A model generated the notes under the pieces. The model had not been told where the DNA came from. It made no database searches and saw only the letters and a program-made list of their open reading frames with translations. From contig JAJYLA010000004.1 of the NCBI GenBank assembly GCA_021788115.1, positions 1 to 64,000 of the forward strand: DNA of 64,000 nucleotides, written 5' to 3'. The stretch comes from Actinomycetes bacterium. GTDB lineage: Bacteria; Actinomycetota; Acidimicrobiia; Acidimicrobiales; Palsa-688. This document shows, piece by piece, positions 9,800-19,666 of the stretch. Each line of letters starts with the position of its first letter. Within the stretch, counting starts at the first letter, position 1. The position numbers and the translations under genes are program-made.

Positions 9800-10282
9800 C
9801 TACACGAAGAGGTTGACGTTCGCCTCGTCGGCTTCGGCCAGGTAGCTGGCGACCCCCACGAACTCGAGACCTTCTATGAGCTCCTCCTGCTTCAAGCCCA
9901 TGACGTCCATGGACATGGTGCAGGCCTCCATCTTGATGCCCTGCTCCCTGGCTGTGGCGATCAGATCCTCCAGCGACTGGACGTTCTGCTGGTGCATGAC
10001 CCGCTTCATCAGGTTCGGGCCCATGCCCCCGAAGTTCATGGTCGACAGATGCAGCTTCCCGGGACCCCGGGGCATCATCGTAGCGAACATCTTCTGGAGG
10101 AAGCTCTTGCCGGCGGTCTTCACCTTCTCCGGCTTTCGCAGGGCGTTCAGCCCCCAGAAGGTGAAGAACATGGTGACGTCGTCGCCCATGGCGGCCGCAC
10201 CGTTCGCGATGACGAATGCCGCCAGGACCTTGTCCATATCGCCGCTGAAGACGACGATGGTCTTCTTCGTGGTGTCGGCCAT
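9800..10282 (-). CDS. DsrE2-like sulfur-carrier protein
   Basis: The 160-residue product belongs to the DsrE/DsrF-like superfamily, DsrE2 type. It begins TIVVFSGDMDKVLAAF, has the typical FFTFWGLNAL segment, a Met-rich middle (QKMFATMMPRG), and a single conserved cysteine C121 in EACTMSMDVMGL. Such proteins carry protein-bound persulfide and often pair with TusA and rhodanese in sulfur-oxidising or sulfur-reducing organisms. It has its own AGGAGG site and lies 51 bases downstream of the qmoC-like gene, so it is the last gene of the minus-strand sulfur cluster. The DsrE2 assignment rests on motif resemblance. Confidence 0.85.
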   Translation of the reverse strand: MADTTKKTIVVFSGDMDKVLAAFVIANGAAAMGDDVTMFFTFWGLNALRKPEKVKTAGKSFLQKMFATMMPRGPGKLHLSTMNFGGMGPNLMKRVMHQQNVQSLEDLIATAREQGIKMEACTMSMDVMGLKQEELIEGLEFVGVASYLAEADEANVNLFV

Positions 10283-10333: not shown

Positions 10334-11524
10334 TTATGCGGCGGACGTCAACTCTTCGCGTCCGGCCTGCTTCGCCTGCTCGCCGGCCAGCGCGTAGAAG
10401 AACAGCGCCACCGGCCGGTAGATCGCGTGGGCGAACTTGATGAACGGAAGGAGCAGCATGAGCTCCATCGCGACGGATACGTGGAACAGGAACACCCAGT
10501 ACCCCCACGACGGCGCGTGCGGCAGGTACAGGGCGATCTCGATCAGGAAGCCGCTGAACCCGACGACCCAGAGCATCACGAGGAACATCCAGTCGGACGG
10601 CTTGGATTCCTTCGCCGCCCGGTTGGAGCGCAGCAGCCGGTTGACGATGAGCATGCTCACGCCATAGACCATCGCGATCCCCGCCAGCGTGCCGAGGAGG
10701 CGCACGGGATACCAGACGGGCACGGCCGCGCCGGTCTTGCGCACCCCGATCAGCGAGAGGCCGTAGTCGAGCAGCGTCGCGCCCAGCAGCCCGAGGAACC
10801 CCCACAGGGTGAGGGAGTGGGCCAGCCACCGCCGGCGGTACAGCGGTTCGGTCTCCTGTATCTCGCTGCAGTCGCCGCGGTAGCGGCGCTGGCCGATGGA
10901 TTCGACCCCGATCGCGTTCCACAGCGCCCCGAAGATGCCGGCGAGGGGAAGCTGGCGGAACTGCACCCCCTCGCGACGGGCGATGCCCCGGGCCATCGTG
11001 ACGATGCCCGCCAACCCGGCCAGGGCGATCAGCACCATCACCGCGATGCCCGTGTAATGGATCAGGTGCTCGGGGATGAAGTCGAACACTTTCAGCGACC
11101 GGTTGCTCTGCGACCCGTGGGCCGAGTACAGGAAGGTGGCGAAGAAGACCGCGACCAAAAGGGCGATGGCCGATCCGACGAACGGCCGGGTATACATCGT
11201 CCGCGCCAGGCGGGTCCTGTCGTAGCTCGCTATGGCGTAGCGACGGGCTGCGGCCATGTATTCGGCTGGATCCGCCTGCTGCGGGCAGCTGTCGGAGCAC
11301 TTGCCGCAGTGGTAGCAGGTCCACAGCTCCTTGCTCGACAGCAGGGCGTCCTTCATGCCGACCTGGGCGTAGCGGATCATGCGCCGGGGGAAGGTCCCGT
11401 CGTTGTCCGACAGCGGGCAGATGGCCGTGCAGTTGCCGCAGCTGAAGCACGCCGACACGTCCGCCGCCCCGAACCGCTTGACGTCGGCGAGGAGCCCGGT
11501 GTCGATGAAGGTGACGGCCGTCAT
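10334..11524 (-). CDS. QmoC-like membrane subunit (HdrC ferredoxin domain fused to HdrE-type cytochrome b domain)
   Basis: The 396-residue protein starts with two cubane motifs, C26-x2-C29-x2-C32-x3-C36 and C70-x2-C73-x2-C76-x3-C80, as in HdrC. From about residue 105 there are several hydrophobic helices of the HdrE/nitrate-reductase-gamma type, which bind heme b and meet the quinone pool. This HdrC-HdrE fusion is the layout of QmoC. It lacks the CCG domains of HdrB, so it should pass electrons to or from quinone and not reduce disulfides. Its ATG overlaps the stop of the preceding small gene. Confidence 0.85.
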   Translation of the reverse strand: MTAVTFIDTGLLADVKRFGAADVSACFSCGNCTAICPLSDNDGTFPRRMIRYAQVGMKDALLSSKELWTCYHCGKCSDSCPQQADPAEYMAAARRYAIASYDRTRLARTMYTRPFVGSAIALLVAVFFATFLYSAHGSQSNRSLKVFDFIPEHLIHYTGIAVMVLIALAGLAGIVTMARGIARREGVQFRQLPLAGIFGALWNAIGVESIGQRRYRGDCSEIQETEPLYRRRWLAHSLTLWGFLGLLGATLLDYGLSLIGVRKTGAAVPVWYPVRLLGTLAGIAMVYGVSMLIVNRLLRSNRAAKESKPSDWMFLVMLWVVGFSGFLIEIALYLPHAPSWGYWVFLFHVSVAMELMLLLPFIKFAHAIYRPVALFFYALAGEQAKQAGREELTSAA

Positions 11525-11769
11525 GACGCCACCCTCACGGCCCTGTACTGGAAGTAGCCGTCGTCGTCGGCGTCCGGCAGCTCGACGACCTTGCCGTAGC
11601 GGCGCATCCCCATCACCCAGAAGAGCACCTCGTCGGAGGGCTTGCCGATGGCCTCCGCTATCTGGGGGACGGTAAGCGGCCCGTCCTTGAGAGCCTCCAG
11701 GATCGGCCGGTGCATGAGCAGCTCCTCCCGGATGATCTCCCGTGGGTCCCGGGTCGGCGTCGTCCTCAT
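11521..11769 (-). CDS. Small winged-helix-like protein of the Qmo/Hdr cluster
   Basis: An 82-residue protein is sandwiched by ATGA overlaps on both sides, between the QmoB-like and QmoC-like genes, which argues that it is a true gene. The segment LKDGPLTVPQIAEAIGKPSDEVLFWVMGMRR reads like a helix-turn-helix or winged helix, followed by GKVVEL and a short acidic wing (DADDDGYFQY). No cysteines are present, so it is not an electron carrier. It could be a local regulator or a structural subunit that re-uses the fold. The quoted stretch has been kept as landmark only; function is unknown. Confidence 0.7.
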   Translation of the reverse strand: MRTTPTRDPREIIREELLMHRPILEALKDGPLTVPQIAEAIGKPSDEVLFWVMGMRRYGKVVELPDADDDGYFQYRAVRVAS

Positions 11770-13514
11770 GCGACCGGCTCCTCCACTCGTTCCAACGGAT
11801 CCTCGGCCAGGCTGTCGATCATCGACTCGATCTGGGAGGTGGTGCTGCCCAGGAGGTCGATCGCGTGGTCGGGGCAGTAGGAGGTGCAACCGCCGCAGCC
11901 CTTGCAGGTCGCGGCGCTGATGGTCGCCACCTCGCGCCCGTCAACCGTGATCTTGTCGATGGCGGCGTAGGGGCAGACCTCCTGGCAGGCCCCGCACCAG
12001 GTGCACCTCTCCGGGTCGACCGTGGCGACGAGAGGGTCGAGCTCGGCCACGCCCTTCATCAGCATGGCGCCGCTCTGCGTGACAGCGGTGAGCCCGGAGG
12101 CCACGCTTTCGGTCGAGTTCTTCGGACCCTGACAGGCGCCGGCGATCATGACGCCGTCCACGACCGTCTCGACGGGGCGCAGCTTCGGGTGGATCTCGTT
12201 GTAGAAGCCGTCGCTGCCGACAGGAAGCTTGAGGATGGTCGTGAGCTCCTCGTTGTCGCGGGGCACCATGCCGGTGACGAGCACGACGAGGTCGGCGGGG
12301 ATCGTCAGCTCCTCGCCGCCGGTCAGCGTGTCGCGGGTGGTGACCAGCAGGGTGCGCCCGTCGGGGGCCTTCGCCACCGACGGCGGTGTGCCGTCGGGAA
12401 ACTTCATGTACACCGACCCCCGCTTGCGGGATTCCTCGTACATGAGCTCGAACTTGCCGTAGGTCCGGATGTCCCGGTAGAGGTGGTACTGGTGCACGTT
12501 CTGGTCGATCCTGTCGACTTCGATCGACGCGTGCACCGTCGCCGCGCAGCAGTACCGGGAGCAGTACTCGTTGCCGCCCGGCTGGCGGTTGCCGACGCAG
12601 TAGATGTAGGCGACGGTCCGCACCGGCTTGCCGTGGTAAGTGAGCGATCCGGTCGAGTGATCGACGAGCTCCTTGAACTCGGGCAGGGTGAGGACACCGT
12701 CGATGCCGTACCCGTACTCGCCGATCTCGGGGCGGTAGGTGTCGAAGCCGGTGGCCACCACGATGGAGCCGACCTCGAGCCGCAGCGAGTCCGGGATGTC
12801 GTTGTTGATCCGGATCTCGGTGACGTAGTTGCCGAAGCTGCCCGACTTGGAGGCGAGCTCCGCGTTGGTCAGGACCACGATCTCGGGCCGCTTCTTCACC
12901 TCCGCCACGAGGCGGTCTATCAGCTCTCGGCCGCTGCTGCGGTTGGGGTACATCGCCCCGAAGCGCGCCACCCAGCCGCCGAGCTCCTTTTCGCGCTCGA
13001 CCAGGTACACGCCGAGGCCGATGTCGGCGAGGCCGATCGCGGCCCTCAGGCCGGCGATCCCGGCGCCGATGACGAGAGTCTTCGGCGTCGTCTTCACGGA
13101 GATGGGCTCGAGGGGGACCGACCACTGAGTCCTGGCTATGCCGGCCTTGACGAGCCCGATCGCCTTCTCCGTGGCGCCCGCATGGTCGTCGCCGTGTGCC
13201 CACGAGTCCTGCTCGCGGATGTTCACCTGGCTGTACTGGAACGGGTTGAGCCCGGCTCTCTTCGACACGCCACGGAAGGTGAACAGGTGCAGCTTCGGTG
13301 AGCACGATGCGACCACCAGGCCGTCGAGCTTCTCGTCCCGGATACGCTGGATCATGTCCTGCTGGGTGCCGTCGGAGCACGCAAAGAGGGTGGTCTCGGC
13401 GTGCACCACCCCCGGCTCGTCCTTGATGGCGTCGCGGACCTTCGCCACGTCGACGTAGTCGGAGATGTTCCCTCCGCAATGGCATATGTACACGCCGATG
13501 CGCCGCTCGCTCAT
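11766..13514 (-). CDS. QmoB/HdrA-like FAD iron-sulfur subunit
   Basis: The 582-residue protein begins with the HdrA N-terminus (VYICHCGGNISDYVDV), then the FAD-binding GAGIAGLRAAIGLADIG, a cysteine cluster around YCSRYCCAATVH, and two C-terminal [4Fe-4S] motifs starting at C504 (CTWCGACQEVCP) and C537 (CKGCGGCTSYCP). The LDCxxC motif after the FAD loop in standard HdrA is missing here; the segment reads GGWVARFGAMYPNRS, as one would expect for a QmoB-type partner. QmoB proteins usually end in an MvhD domain; here MvhD is encoded separately upstream. It is translationally coupled on both sides. Confidence 0.85.
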   Translation of the reverse strand: MSERRIGVYICHCGGNISDYVDVAKVRDAIKDEPGVVHAETTLFACSDGTQQDMIQRIRDEKLDGLVVASCSPKLHLFTFRGVSKRAGLNPFQYSQVNIREQDSWAHGDDHAGATEKAIGLVKAGIARTQWSVPLEPISVKTTPKTLVIGAGIAGLRAAIGLADIGLGVYLVEREKELGGWVARFGAMYPNRSSGRELIDRLVAEVKKRPEIVVLTNAELASKSGSFGNYVTEIRINNDIPDSLRLEVGSIVVATGFDTYRPEIGEYGYGIDGVLTLPEFKELVDHSTGSLTYHGKPVRTVAYIYCVGNRQPGGNEYCSRYCCAATVHASIEVDRIDQNVHQYHLYRDIRTYGKFELMYEESRKRGSVYMKFPDGTPPSVAKAPDGRTLLVTTRDTLTGGEELTIPADLVVLVTGMVPRDNEELTTILKLPVGSDGFYNEIHPKLRPVETVVDGVMIAGACQGPKNSTESVASGLTAVTQSGAMLMKGVAELDPLVATVDPERCTWCGACQEVCPYAAIDKITVDGREVATISAATCKGCGGCTSYCPDHAIDLLGSTTSQIESMIDSLAEDPLERVEEPVA

Positions 13515-16249
13515 GCCGACACCTCCATTGTCGTAACCGGCTGCTCGAGCCGCGACCGCTCGAGGTGGGCGGCCACCTGCGCCACCGCCGCGCCGGCGTG
13601 CAGGATCGAGTCGACGATGTCCTTGGCCCCCGACGCTGCGCCGGCGACGAAGACGCCGGTGATGCTCGTCTGACCTGGGTTCAGGTCGTCGTTCGGCTCG
13701 GCGACGTAGTAGTAGTCGTCGAGATCGAGCTTCTCGTCGACGAAGAGGCGCTCCGTGTCGCGGTTGGGCTGGACGCCGACGGCGAGGACCACCAGGTCGT
13801 ACTCCGCCTCGACGAGCTTCCCGCCGTTCTCGATGTCCTCGTAGCGGAGGATCAGGTTCCCGTTGTCGGTCTCGGTGATCTTGGCCACGCGCCCCTTGAT
13901 GTAGATGGCGCCCATGTCCTTGGACTGCTCGTAGAACTCGTCGTAGCGCTTTCCCGCCGCCCGGATGTCCATGTAGTGCATGGTCACGTCGGCGAGGGGC
14001 AGGGCCCCCATGATCAGCTGGTTCTGCTTGATCGAGTACATGCAGCAGATCTTCGAGCAGAGGGGGTTGCCGACGGTTCGGTCGCGCGAGCCGGTACACG
14101 AGACATAGGCGATCCTCTCGGGGACCCTCCCGTCGCTCGGGCGCAGGACCGTGTTGAACGGACGGGTGGGCGCGAGCAGCCGGTCCATCTGCATGCCGGT
14201 GATGACGTTGGGGTACTTGCCCCATCCGTACTCGGGCTTGAGGTCGGCTGCGAAGAGCTTGTAGCCGGTCGATACCACGACAGCGCCCACGTCCACCTCG
14301 ACGATCTCGTCGCGCATGTTGAGGTTGATCGCGTTGGCCGGGCACGTCGACACGCACTGGCCGCACTCGGAGCAGACGCCGCAGTCGAGGCAGCCGCCGG
14401 CGGCGAAGACGGCCTCCGCCTCGGTCATGGTCCGCTCGATCTCGGCGAAGTCGCGCGGCGCCGGAGAATGCACGGCGTCGAGCTTTACCGGCTCGCGGTG
14501 GGTGTACTTCTTCTGGCGGGCGAGCACCTCGCCCTTGTGAACGAGGCCGAGGCGGTCGTCGAGGGCCTCGAAGCCGGCGAGCTCGCGGCCCTTGAGCCAG
14601 CGGTCGATCATGTGGGCGGCCCGCCGGCCCTGGCCGACGGCCCGGGTGATGTCGGTGGCGCCGGTGACGACGTCGCCGGCGGCGAACAGGTACGGCACGG
14701 AGCTCTGCAGCGTCCTGGCATCGACCTGGATGCCCCGGTTCGCGGCCACCCGCACCTGGGTCTCGAACGGCGTCGTGTCCGGTACCAGACCGATGGCGGA
14801 GATGACCGCATCGCAGGCGATGACGAACTCGCTGCCGGGCACCGGCTTGGGGCGGCGGCGTCCGGACGCGTCCGGCTCGCCGAGCTTCATGCGCGTGCAG
14901 CGCAGCCCGCTGACGTTCCCGCCGGGCCCGGAGACGACCTCGACGGGCGCCACCAGGAACTGGAACTGGACACCTTCCCTCTCGGCGTCGTCGACCTCCG
15001 CCGCGTGCGCCGGCATCTCCTCCCGGCCGCGCCGGTAGGCGATGACCGTCTCGAGCGCGCCGAGCCGGCGTGCCGTCCGGGCTGCGTCCATGGCGACGTT
15101 GCCCCCGCCGACGATCACGACACGCTTGCCGGCGAGGTCCGGCACCGTGTCGTAGCGCACGTCGCGCAGGAAGTCGAGGCCGCTCATGACCCCGGCGAGG
15201 CGTTCGCCGGGCACCTCGAGGCTGGTCGCGCGGGGCGTGCCGGTCGCGACCAGGATGGCGTCGTACCCCTCGGCTTTGAGCGCCGCGAGGTTCTCGACCC
15301 GTGTGTTGGTCACGATCTCCACGCCGAGGGCTGTCACGTTGGCGATGTCCCGCTCGACGACCTCCTGGGGGAGGCGGTACACGGGTATGGCCTGGCGGAG
15401 GAAGCCGCCCGGGACGGGGGCCGCCTCGAAGATCTTCACCCGGTACCCCGTGCGGGCGAGCTGCCAGGCGGCGGTCAGGCCTGCCGGCCCGGAGCCGACG
15501 ATTGCCACGCTCTTGCCGTTGGGCTCCGGGGCGTCGAAGCCGGGCCCGTTCATCTCCGCGTAGTGCCGCTCCGCAATGAAGCGCTTCAGGCGCCGGATGG
15601 GAAGCGGGCCCTCGAGGTCGCCGCGGCTGCAGTCGTTCTCGCACGGGGCGTAGCAGGCGCGACCGAGCGTGCCGACGAGCGGGGTGGCGTCGAGGACGAG
15701 CTGGAAGGCCTCCTCGTACTTGCCGCTGCGGATGAGCGACACGTAGCCGTGGGCCTTGATCCCCGCCGGGCAGGTGTCGGTGCACGGCGAGGTCCCCGCC
15801 CGCTCGATGACGGCCTTCTTCGGCACCGCCTGGGGGAACGCGATGTAGGCCGCACGGCGGGGGACGAGGTCCGCGTTGAACTGGTCCGGTACCGCCACGG
15901 TGCAGGCCGTCTCGCACTCCTGGCAGCCGGTGCAGGCCGCCCAGTCGACGAACTTCGCCTTCTGGCGAACGCTGGCGTGGAAGCTGCCATCGGGGTTCCG
16001 CCGGATCCCCAGGACCTGGCTGTAGGTCAGGTTGGTGATGTTGGGGTGGTTGACGGTCGTCGACATCTTCGGCCCCGAGATGCAGCTGGCGCAGTCGAGC
16101 GTCGGGAAGACCTTGCTGAGAAGGATCATGCGCCCGCCGACGCTCGGCTCCTTCTCGACGAGGAGGACCTTGTAGCCCATGTCGCCGAGCTTGATCGACG
16201 ACTCCATCCCGCCGATGCCGCCCCCCACCACCAGCGCGTCGTACTTCAT
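13511..16249 (-). CDS. HdrA/QmoA-like flavoprotein with an inserted GltD-type NAD(P)H oxidoreductase domain
   Basis: The 912-residue protein is HdrA-like at both ends: FAD loop VVGGGIGGMESSIKLGDMG, then TLDCASCISGPKM and CTGCQECETAC, and after residue 640 the HdrA stretch with SCTGSRD and CSKICCMYSIKQ. Between about residues 145 and 640 lies a glutamate-synthase-small-subunit-like unit: CTDTCPAGIKAHGYV, LGRACYAPCENDCSRG, FAD motif VAIVGSGPAGLTAA, second nucleotide motif VVIVGGGNVAMDAA, then DITRAVGQGRRAAHMID, closing with CLDCGVCSECGQCVSTCP. This suggests coupling of an NAD(P)H pool to Hdr-type electron flow. Standard HdrA is about 650 residues. ATGA overlaps join it to both neighbours. Confidence 0.88.
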   Translation of the reverse strand: MKYDALVVGGGIGGMESSIKLGDMGYKVLLVEKEPSVGGRMILLSKVFPTLDCASCISGPKMSTTVNHPNITNLTYSQVLGIRRNPDGSFHASVRQKAKFVDWAACTGCQECETACTVAVPDQFNADLVPRRAAYIAFPQAVPKKAVIERAGTSPCTDTCPAGIKAHGYVSLIRSGKYEEAFQLVLDATPLVGTLGRACYAPCENDCSRGDLEGPLPIRRLKRFIAERHYAEMNGPGFDAPEPNGKSVAIVGSGPAGLTAAWQLARTGYRVKIFEAAPVPGGFLRQAIPVYRLPQEVVERDIANVTALGVEIVTNTRVENLAALKAEGYDAILVATGTPRATSLEVPGERLAGVMSGLDFLRDVRYDTVPDLAGKRVVIVGGGNVAMDAARTARRLGALETVIAYRRGREEMPAHAAEVDDAEREGVQFQFLVAPVEVVSGPGGNVSGLRCTRMKLGEPDASGRRRPKPVPGSEFVIACDAVISAIGLVPDTTPFETQVRVAANRGIQVDARTLQSSVPYLFAAGDVVTGATDITRAVGQGRRAAHMIDRWLKGRELAGFEALDDRLGLVHKGEVLARQKKYTHREPVKLDAVHSPAPRDFAEIERTMTEAEAVFAAGGCLDCGVCSECGQCVSTCPANAINLNMRDEIVEVDVGAVVVSTGYKLFAADLKPEYGWGKYPNVITGMQMDRLLAPTRPFNTVLRPSDGRVPERIAYVSCTGSRDRTVGNPLCSKICCMYSIKQNQLIMGALPLADVTMHYMDIRAAGKRYDEFYEQSKDMGAIYIKGRVAKITETDNGNLILRYEDIENGGKLVEAEYDLVVLAVGVQPNRDTERLFVDEKLDLDDYYYVAEPNDDLNPGQTSITGVFVAGAASGAKDIVDSILHAGAAVAQVAAHLERSRLEQPVTTMEVSA

Positions 16250-16686
16250 GCGGCTTCCTCTCCTGTTCCTGTCGGAGCCAGTGCGGCCAGCATCTGGGAG
16301 AACTCCCGCATGTGGTTGACGAAAGGCTCCGCGCACACAGAGCACAGCGCGGCCATCCTCACCCTCTGGGCCGGGTAACCCAGACTTCGCAGCTGCTCCT
16401 GCGCCTCCGCTGCGATCCGGGCGGACCGTTCGTTGCAGTCCGGCAGGTACGCGCACTCGTCGCCGTCGGTGGCGATGAACACACCGTCGAAACCGCTCTC
16501 TATCGCGTGCACGATCCAGGCCGGCTGGATGCCGCTACTGCACGGGACGGTGATCGTCGACACTGTCGCCGGGTAGTGGAGGTGCCGGCTGCCCGCCAGG
16601 TCGATTCCGGGATCCGAGATGTTGTTGGTCGAGAACACCAGGATCCTGGGCAACGAGCCTCCCCCGGTGCCAGCGCGGTTCGTCAT
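16246..16686 (-). CDS. MvhD/FlpD-family [2Fe-2S] electron-transfer subunit
   Basis: A 146-residue protein of the methyl-viologen-reducing-hydrogenase delta-subunit family. It shows TITVPCSSGIQPAWIVHAIE, GFDGVFIATDGDECAYLPDC and ALCSVCAEPF, with cysteines C49, C78, C84, C115 and C118 at the family's cluster positions. MvhD passes electrons between a partner enzyme and HdrA. No hydrogenase lies nearby, so the partner here may be the GltD-type insert of the HdrA-like protein next door. Start ATG 16686 lies five bases after the tusA stop; its end overlaps the next ATG. Confidence 0.85.
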   Translation of the reverse strand: MTNRAGTGGGSLPRILVFSTNNISDPGIDLAGSRHLHYPATVSTITVPCSSGIQPAWIVHAIESGFDGVFIATDGDECAYLPDCNERSARIAAEAQEQLRSLGYPAQRVRMAALCSVCAEPFVNHMREFSQMLAALAPTGTGEEAA

Positions 16687-16691
16687 CGCCG

Positions 16692-16952
16692 CTACTTCGC
16701 CTTTTTGATGAACAGCCGGAGGTAGCCCGAATCCTCGAAGTCGCCCAGGTAGTCGTGGCCCATCTTCTTCGACCACGCAGGGAGGTCCTTCTTCGTGCCC
16801 GAGTCGGTGGCGAGGACCTCCATGACCCCGCCCACCGTGACGGCGCCGATGTTCTTCTTGGCCGCGAGGATCGGTCCGGGGCACGAGGTGCCGCGGGCGT
16901 CGACGACCTTGTCGGCCGTGAGATCCTTCAGCTCTTCCATGGTCATGGTCAC
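16692..16952 (-). CDS. tusA: TusA-family sulfur carrier
   Basis: The 86-residue protein has the TusA signature with catalytic C24 (ARGTSCPGPILAAKK) and the C-terminal SGYLRLFIKKAK. TusA carries persulfide sulfur between cytoplasmic enzymes. GTG 16952 is chosen because AGGAGG at 16960-16965 sits 7 nt ahead; ATGs at 16946 and 16940 would be 13 and 19 nt away. It is the first gene of the minus-strand cluster and so may be the most highly expressed. Its pairing with DsrE2 at the far end and Hdr/Qmo-like subunits between supports a sulfur-linked electron-transfer role. Confidence 0.92.
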   Translation of the reverse strand: MTMTMEELKDLTADKVVDARGTSCPGPILAAKKNIGAVTVGGVMEVLATDSGTKKDLPAWSKKMGHDYLGDFEDSGYLRLFIKKAK

Positions 16953-18975: not shown

Positions 18976-19521
18976 TTACGGCTGACGCCGGCCGAGTGCC
19001 AGGCCGAGGCCGGAGAGGATCACGAGCAGGGCGCCGGGAACCACGAAGAACCAGGTGAAGAGGTTGAAGTTGGGGAGGCTGGAGATCTCCTTGTAGTTGT
19101 GCACGTTGTTGTTCATCGTGGTGACCAGCGGCTTGTAGAAGTCGAGGCCGGGCGGGACGTTCTTGAAGATGGGCACGAGCTGGGGGAAGCTCCCGAGAAG
19201 CTTGGCCATCGCCGGGTAGTTGGACCCGAGAAACTGCTGCACCTGGGCCGGCGTCATGTGAAGGGCCGAGGCGAGGCCGGTGGTCATCTGCTGCACCTCC
19301 GCGGCGGCCTGGACCCCTCCCTGGGCGACGCTTCCCAGGGGCACGAACGTGTTGTTGTAGTAGTCGACCGTCTGCTTGACCGCGCCGGGCTGCATGATCC
19401 CGTGGAAGTTGTCGATCATCTTCTGCCCGGCGCTCGCCTTGCCGGGAAGGTTGATGGCGAAGGGCGCTACCACGAGGAGGATCCCGATCACCATCACTGC
19501 CCACAGCACCTTCCGAGACAT
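18976..19521 (-). CDS. Conserved-looking two-TM membrane protein of unknown function
   Basis: From ATG 19521 (AAGGAGG 7 nt ahead) the product is 181 residues: an N-terminal helix (VLWAVMVIGILLVVAPFAI), an extracytoplasmic helical region of about 120 residues with several short amphipathic segments (MTPAQVQQFLGSNYPAMAKL), and a C-terminal helix (FTWFFVVPGALLVILSGLGL) ending GRRQP. No cysteines or catalytic motifs are visible. The topology (both ends inside, loop outside) recalls small actinobacterial envelope proteins but I cannot name a family. Confidence 0.7.
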   Translation of the reverse strand: MSRKVLWAVMVIGILLVVAPFAINLPGKASAGQKMIDNFHGIMQPGAVKQTVDYYNNTFVPLGSVAQGGVQAAAEVQQMTTGLASALHMTPAQVQQFLGSNYPAMAKLLGSFPQLVPIFKNVPPGLDFYKPLVTTMNNNVHNYKEISSLPNFNLFTWFFVVPGALLVILSGLGLALGRRQP

Positions 19522-19666
19522 TGGCGCCTCCTTGTATATGTGCATATGCGCACTCGTATTGTGACAGAAGGTACAAGCAGACCCGCCCCGGTGCTATAGC
19601 CGAAATGCTCTAGTTGCCCCGGCCCTAAGGGCGGTCATCGCAGGCGTGTGGCGGGAGGGGGGACTT

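Follow-up and report, generated by a model that had tools for sequence, protein, structure and literature searches.

The operon and its genes

The window, i.e. the whole stretch of 64,000 nucleotides that was analysed, carries on its minus strand an operon with the gene order TusA-FlpD-QmoA(GltD)-HdrA2/QmoB-w64-QmoC-DsrE2. The first gene (16692..16949) codes for a TusA sulfur carrier (PF01206) whose CPGP cysteine, Cys24, is kept in 74/74 sequences. It is followed by the gene of a FlpD/MvhD iron-sulfur protein (16246..16686; PF02662), in which five cysteines are invariant in 77 sequences, and by the gene of a 912-amino-acid QmoA/HdrA-type flavoprotein with a GltD-type insert (13511..16249), here called QmoA(GltD). 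The FlpD/QmoA(GltD) and QmoA(GltD)/second HdrA junctions are overlapping ATGA start/stop motifs. The second HdrA-type subunit (11766..13514) is QmoB-like and features an N-terminal domain, a FAD domain and a C-terminal 2x[4Fe-4S] domain, without an MvhD domain. Both flavin residues are lost from it, the position of K409 being His and that of E356 being Lys. Downstream lies w64 (11521..11715), a conserved protein of 64 amino acids present in 73 of 80 loci, for which a family search gave no match.

The membrane subunit (10334..11524) combines an HdrC-type 2x[4Fe-4S] domain, with 8 invariant cysteines, and about 6 hydrophobic, transmembrane segments with conserved histidines 156, 236, 348 and 366. 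It scores 204 bits to NF038018, below the curated cut-off of 300, and matches canonical QmoC in 8/8 conserved Fe-S cysteines and in 3/4 conserved histidine columns. The last gene (9800..10282) encodes a sulfur carrier of the DsrE2 type (PF13686; 84 bits to NF047629, below the cut-off of 210) whose Cys121 is kept in 49/49 sequences. QmoA-, QmoB- and QmoC-like subunits are thus found together in one operon, which also holds TusA and DsrE2; a YTD cluster (YedE-TusA-DsrE) would combine such genes with YedE. Family searches identified in the window operon neither HdrB-type CCG subunits nor a lipoate-binding protein or ligase, and no ferredoxin gene was identified in it. Some relatives have two TusA genes, several DsrE-type genes and an upstream ArsR-like regulator (read as ArsR from its sequence), which ties the operon to protein-bound sulfane sulfur. 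This Qmo-like context linked to sulfur carriers had escaped the earlier note on this DNA, as had the fact that the fused flavoprotein is the usual form in the operon family.

An open reading frame for a membrane protein of 190 amino acids (LLVVAPFAINLPGKASAGQ...) lies near the operon at 18976-19545 (minus strand). A similar 190-amino-acid frame (LIVAPFAISLPSKASAGQ...) is found near the operon of an Acidimicrobiaceae relative (L228:10932-11522, minus strand).

Architecture of QmoA(GltD)

The earlier note had proposed a GltD-type unit placed inside an HdrA whose two halves remain recognisable. This arrangement is real, and Pfam, the match to Methanothermococcus HdrA (5odc_A), the matches to StnC-type chains and the AF2 model agree on it. 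Pfam places Fer4_20 at residues 153-231 and Pyr_redox_2 at 247-541, flanked by FAD and Fer4 matches. HdrA 5odc_A matches residues 4-150 and 622-902 of the protein with segments that are contiguous in 5odc_A (145-290 and 289-571), while a PDB sequence search matched StnC, NfnA, NfnB, NfnABC and GltD-type chains to residues 154-632 or a part of them. The AF2 model of the 912-residue protein, built with 49 relatives as input, has a pLDDT of 78.7 and a pTM of 0.62 and is weakest at the junctions 118-150 and 693-699. It aligns to StnC-type chains (9bov/StnC) over residues 149-626 (Z 46-49) and to HdrA over residues 2-905, with the insert skipped (Z ~32, ~405 residues). The GltD-type unit is therefore inserted within the inserted ferredoxin of the HdrA fold.

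The N half of HdrA (residues 1-150; 15800..16249) is defined by the alignment to 5odc_A 145-290 and by invariant columns. It contains the FAD motif GxGxxG, C53/C56 and the first half of the inserted ferredoxin (C106, C109, C112 and C116). The GltD/StnC-type insert spans residues ~151-624 (14378..15799) according to Pfam, the PDB matches and the AF2 fold alignment. Its N-terminal Fe-S part holds C156, C160, C199, C203, C207 and K222, and is followed by a FAD motif (G252-G257), R292, the NADP(H) motif GGGNVAMD...YRR (381-407) and C620/C623. The C half of HdrA (residues 625-912; 13514..14377), delimited by the 5odc_A alignment, residue columns and AF2, brings the second half of the inserted ferredoxin (C626, C629, C632 and C636), D689 (equivalent to E356), C718/C731/C735/C736 and K741 (equivalent to K409). 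The residue bounds of 145-640 proposed before for the insert are close to these. The low coordinate given with them, 13900, falls ~480 bp too far, within the HdrA C half.

The chain starts with the FAD domain and stops at about residue 571 of 5odc. The name HdrA given to it by the earlier note holds for the fold and not for a full HdrA, because the HdrA N-terminal domain and C-terminal ferredoxin are missing; for the same reason the flavoprotein is considered QmoA-like.

Cofactor sites and the question of bifurcation

Residues of the insert were compared in 85 members of the family and those of the HdrA part in 45 members. Two FAD sites and additional Fe-S ligands in a single chain, as proposed before, are supported. 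The closest solved fold for the insert is that of StnC from the Stn transhydrogenase (PMC10482914) and of the large subunit of NfnABC (9bov, 9n5u), with ~40% identity (Z 47.7 for the AF2 insert against 8oh5_C). In those complexes NuoG-type domains are joined to the unit, while here it lies inside an HdrA fold. Position 222 is Lys in 85/85 members, where NfnB/GltD-type relatives have Glu. This lysine aligns with StnC K170, an unusual ligand of the FAD-proximal cluster, and the StnC FAD was judged non-bifurcating by the authors who described K170 and R239 (PMC10482914). R292 aligns with StnC R239 and NfnB R201, but is invariant and does not discriminate. Because Lys stands throughout in place of the Glu that binds the FAD-proximal [4Fe-4S] cluster in bifurcating NfnB, bifurcation of the NfnB type was rejected as the insert's own function. 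The proposal that the GltD flavin bifurcates is thus not supported, and K222 points instead to NAD(P)H input or output at this site.

NfnB-type relatives carry a CxxC at the N-terminus but not the tail motif. In contrast, the inserts and StnC-like free proteins are devoid of the N-terminal CxxC and carry a C-terminal one (C620 and C623 here). We infer that C620/C623 complete the distal cluster.

The YRR motif (405-407) of the window protein is kept in 68 of the 85 members. DsrL-2 proteins of the YRR type are strictly NADP(H)-dependent (PMC7596348), and the motif predicts, by analogy, NADP(H) use in the window protein. The NAD(P)H input suggested by the earlier note fits this site and the likeness of the unit to StnC and DsrL. 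Among the other members, 12/85 have an acidic motif of the NADH type, one (L098) looks frameshifted and four Propionibacteriales have lost the site. In these four (L108, L109, L116 and L118) the NAD(P)H site is degenerate (GGDVV...), while the FAD motif, K222 and the operon are kept, so that NAD(P)H is not essential everywhere. It could be argued from them that the insert persists as a structural relic, or serves as an electron wire, with a physiological partner other than NAD(P)H, but a YRR- or acidic-type motif is present in 80/85 members, including the window protein, and this explanation is very unlikely.

Bifurcation or confurcation at the other flavin, that of HdrA, is possible from the residues there. 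Electrons of NADPH, at a middle potential, would go in part to menaquinone (high) and in part to an acceptor of low potential, for instance ferredoxin or a protein disulfide; alternatively, the reaction would run backwards. The K409 equivalent (K741) is kept in 45/45 members and the ligands of the HdrA clusters are intact. Type III HdrA, which has both K409 and E356, was proposed to bifurcate (PMC12054007), and NADH was proposed to feed a bifurcating Hdr through a related large HdrA of D. reducens (PMC4759654). Against these stands D689, since the E356 equivalent is Asp in 42/45 members and Glu in every other group compared, which weakens the case for bifurcation. The second HdrA subunit lacks both residues, the operon has no identified ferredoxin gene, and the GltD unit takes up the split ferredoxin, which in type I HdrA would be the site of ferredoxin reduction (PMC12054007). 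On balance, bifurcation or confurcation at this flavin is considered unlikely. The insert flavin most likely does no more than convert electron pairs into single electrons, and any bifurcation would take place at the HdrA flavin.

Distribution of the operon

One scan of 84,980 species genomes yielded 381 relatives, and the best 80 of these 381 were examined at the level of the locus. The same fused frame is found in all 80, which excludes a chance fusion. These best 80 are spread over Actinomycetota, Chloroflexota, Bacillota and one Acidobacteriota MAG, although titles of MAG records may mislabel a few loci; the operon is shared by at least four bacterial phyla. Named strains that carry it include Cellulomonas sp. 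SG140, Actinotalea lenta, Desulfotruncus and Desulfofundulus, and the Bacillota carriers comprise the sulfate reducers Desulfotruncus, Desulfoscipio, Desulfallas and Desulfofundulus. TusA is present in 75/80 of these best loci, FlpD in 76/80 and the second HdrA in 78/80, several of the absences being contig ends that adjoin the gene. A QmoC-like subunit is found in 50 of the loci and a short HdrC in 22; in Desulfotruncus the short HdrC is followed by an HdrB-type CCG protein. In the taxonomic order of the host, 7/198 sampled genomes gave a match, six of them with members of the QmoA(GltD) family and one (G642) with a tandem HdrA fusion.

Most members of the TusA-FlpD-QmoA operon family have the fused form. 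Though common there, it does not come with a known non-bifurcating function. A single example of the operon without insert was seen (G007/L049), and no frame of ~446 amino acids, as for an insert-free TusA-FlpD-QmoA operon, was present among the matches listed for 299 genomes of the Desulfotruncus phylum.

Several unusual HdrA frames were observed in the course of the analysis. Four loci (L040, L046, L048 and L227) have long frames of 1465-1680 amino acids that join an HdrA carrying the GltD insert head-to-tail with another HdrA. Selenocysteine HdrA is known from sulfate reducers and methanogens, and in the Desulfotruncus phylum many HdrA matches (L194, L197, L199 and others) have one in-frame TGA, consistent with a selenocysteine HdrA. 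An in-frame TAG in the HdrA matches L169 (G137:C1) and L170 (G048:C12) was dismissed, as it proved to be the regular stop codon of a canonical QmoA encoded next to AprA.

Evolution of the insert

The QmoA(GltD) proteins come out as a single clade (SH-aLRT 99) when a tree is built from the HdrA core, and the insert-free QmoA belonging to the same operon branches as sister to this clade. The clade is placed apart from the bacterial type III proteins. Elsewhere in this tree the type III label changes at least four times on starred branches, by gain or loss, and a single origin of all GltD-in-HdrA proteins was rejected on this ground.

The tree of the inserts groups those of QmoA together with the insert of one type III HdrA, L039. 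Grouping of the QmoA inserts without L039 is rejected (p-AU 0.0014), as is placement of the L039 core in the QmoA clade (p-AU 7e-8), values that are optimistic because L039 was picked post hoc and the trees are quick ones with some long branches. L039 is not an ordinary type III HdrA, its insert lying among those of QmoA and its core outside the QmoA clade. It seems from these sequences that several insertions into HdrA-type proteins occurred at one site and that at least one insert (that of L039) moved between paralogues; the number of insertion events is approximate, given the quick trees, their long branches and the choice of L039 after inspection of the tree.

Relation to known systems

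Insertion of GltD into HdrA is an already published architecture. Type III HdrA, an HdrA with inserted GltD, was described in 2025 from ANME-1 and Bathyarchaeota (PMC12054007). As in QmoA(GltD), its GltD-type unit lies between the two halves of the inserted ferredoxin, K409 is kept and NAD(P)H use was proposed. The nine archaeal sequences described, which go back to two insertions, are of soluble proteins (PMC12054007), while here a short QmoA-type protein has received the unit, in an operon with sulfur carriers and QmoC. Type III HdrA also has the N-terminal cluster domain and C-terminal ferredoxin of type I, both missing here, and keeps the Glu that is D689 here. HdrL of Desulfobacterium autotrophicum, reported in 2009 (PMC2702500), and the large Dred_1327-like HdrA of D. 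reducens are likewise HdrA/glutamate-synthase-type fusions beside MvhD/FlpD with a proposed NADH input (PMC4759654 for D. reducens). Compared by their descriptions, these proteins are predicted to be soluble, are larger and in some cases contain selenocysteine, and no operon with TusA, DsrE2 or QmoC was described for them.

The subunit order is that of QmoABC of types I and II (PMC10504309), with QmoA-, QmoB- and QmoC-like subunits and FlpD/MvhD. The operon differs from QmoABC by the GltD insert in QmoA, by MvhD being separate from QmoB, by the loss of the QmoB flavin residues, by the presence of TusA and DsrE2 and by a host without AprA above cut-off. Type II Qmo was reported with or without Apr (PMC10504309), and some QmoA(GltD) members may belong to this type II. 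DsrL is another GltD-type NAD(P)H flavoprotein of sulfur metabolism in which YRR stands for NADP(H) (PMC7596348); it is a free protein working with DsrAB and keeps the Glu ligand, while the present protein has Lys and a host without DsrA above cut-off. Loci of the sHdr system carry HdrB-type CCG proteins and a lipoate-binding protein or ligase, none of which was identified in the window operon. In the freely accessible main texts of the literature no description was found of a TusA/DsrE2/QmoC operon with a GltD insert in QmoA. The new element is this conserved, apparently undescribed membrane-complex context, the insertion itself being known.

Sulfur metabolism of the host

Qmo complexes are known to work with APS reductase. 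The host is a soil or mine actinobacterium in whose genome (94% complete) neither AprA nor DsrA was found above cut-off, and the operon is therefore not an APS-reductase Qmo in this organism; a canonical Qmo of sulfate reduction was rejected for the host on this basis. AprA was also not found in seven named Actinomycetota with the operon. It is present in 7/7 tested genomes of Bacillota sulfate reducers with the operon, but none was seen in the 21 kb that surround the Desulfotruncus operon (L100).

On another contig than that of the window (G000 contig C58; L161:1-7252) the host has an sHdr-type sulfur-oxidation cluster coding for a DsrE-like protein, HdrC, HdrB, HdrA (371 amino acids), a hypothetical protein, an HdrC2B2-like protein with CCG domain, a lipoate-ligase-like protein and an ArsR-type regulator. 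A further locus (C180:1-3300; L225) encodes a DsrC/TusE-type protein (109 bits), a second DsrE2 and an SQR-like frame that gave no Pfam match.

The complex could run in the oxidative direction, since the host has this oxidative sHdr system. Sulfane sulfur on TusA/DsrE2 (or menaquinol) would then supply the electrons to make NADPH for biosynthesis, and the complex would work for the sHdr system and the machinery of sulfide oxidation in the host. The sHdr cluster and the DsrC-like/DsrE2 cluster of the host favour such a function, as does DsrL, which does the same job for rDsrAB in sulfur oxidisers, with NADP+ in some of them (PMC7596348). The same operon is, however, present in the seven Bacillota sulfate-reducer genomes with AprA, and the QmoC version is devoid of an HdrB-type catalytic subunit, so that an oxidative role is judged rather improbable.

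Proposed function

The preferred reading, with about an even chance of being correct, takes QmoA(GltD) for the flavin subunit of a Qmo-like, membrane-bound complex acting on sulfane sulfur, and the GltD insert for its NADP(H) port. NADPH is preferred as the donor because DsrL-2 proteins of the YRR type strictly depend on NADP(H). NADP(H) would exchange hydride with the FAD of the insert, and single electrons would then cross the two [4Fe-4S] clusters of the insert into the split HdrA ferredoxin. The proximal cluster would be bound by C160, C199, C203 and K222, and the distal one probably by C156, C207, C620 and C623. From the split ferredoxin the electrons would reach the HdrA flavin, the second HdrA subunit, FlpD, QmoC and finally menaquinone. 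For relatives in which HdrBC substitutes for QmoC, the path would end at a soluble site of the HdrB type. Sulfane sulfur carried by TusA/DsrE2, putatively as persulfide, is the likely substrate or regulator. We infer the subunit contacts, the quinone partner, the TusA/DsrE2 persulfide substrate and the direction, the substrate and direction of the complex being deduced from the neighbour genes.

The operon offers a compact, testable system for studying how Hdr-type flavins are linked to NAD(P)H and to sulfur carriers, with an NADP(H) port in a QmoA-type subunit beside TusA and DsrE2 and without AprA or DsrA above cut-off. Changes of K222, R406/R407 and D689 give distinct predictions, and natural variants exist already with an NADPH-type site, an NADH-type site or the site lost. 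Recurrent insertion at a single site, together with the swap in L039, illustrates how electron-input modules may be exchanged. More tentatively, and with less than an even chance, the operon may represent an undescribed class of respiratory NADPH:menaquinone oxidoreductase of the Qmo type, gated by protein-bound sulfane sulfur. On the same reading such enzymes would be widespread in bacteria without dissimilatory sulfate reduction, and their NADPH module would pass as a cassette from one HdrA paralogue to another.
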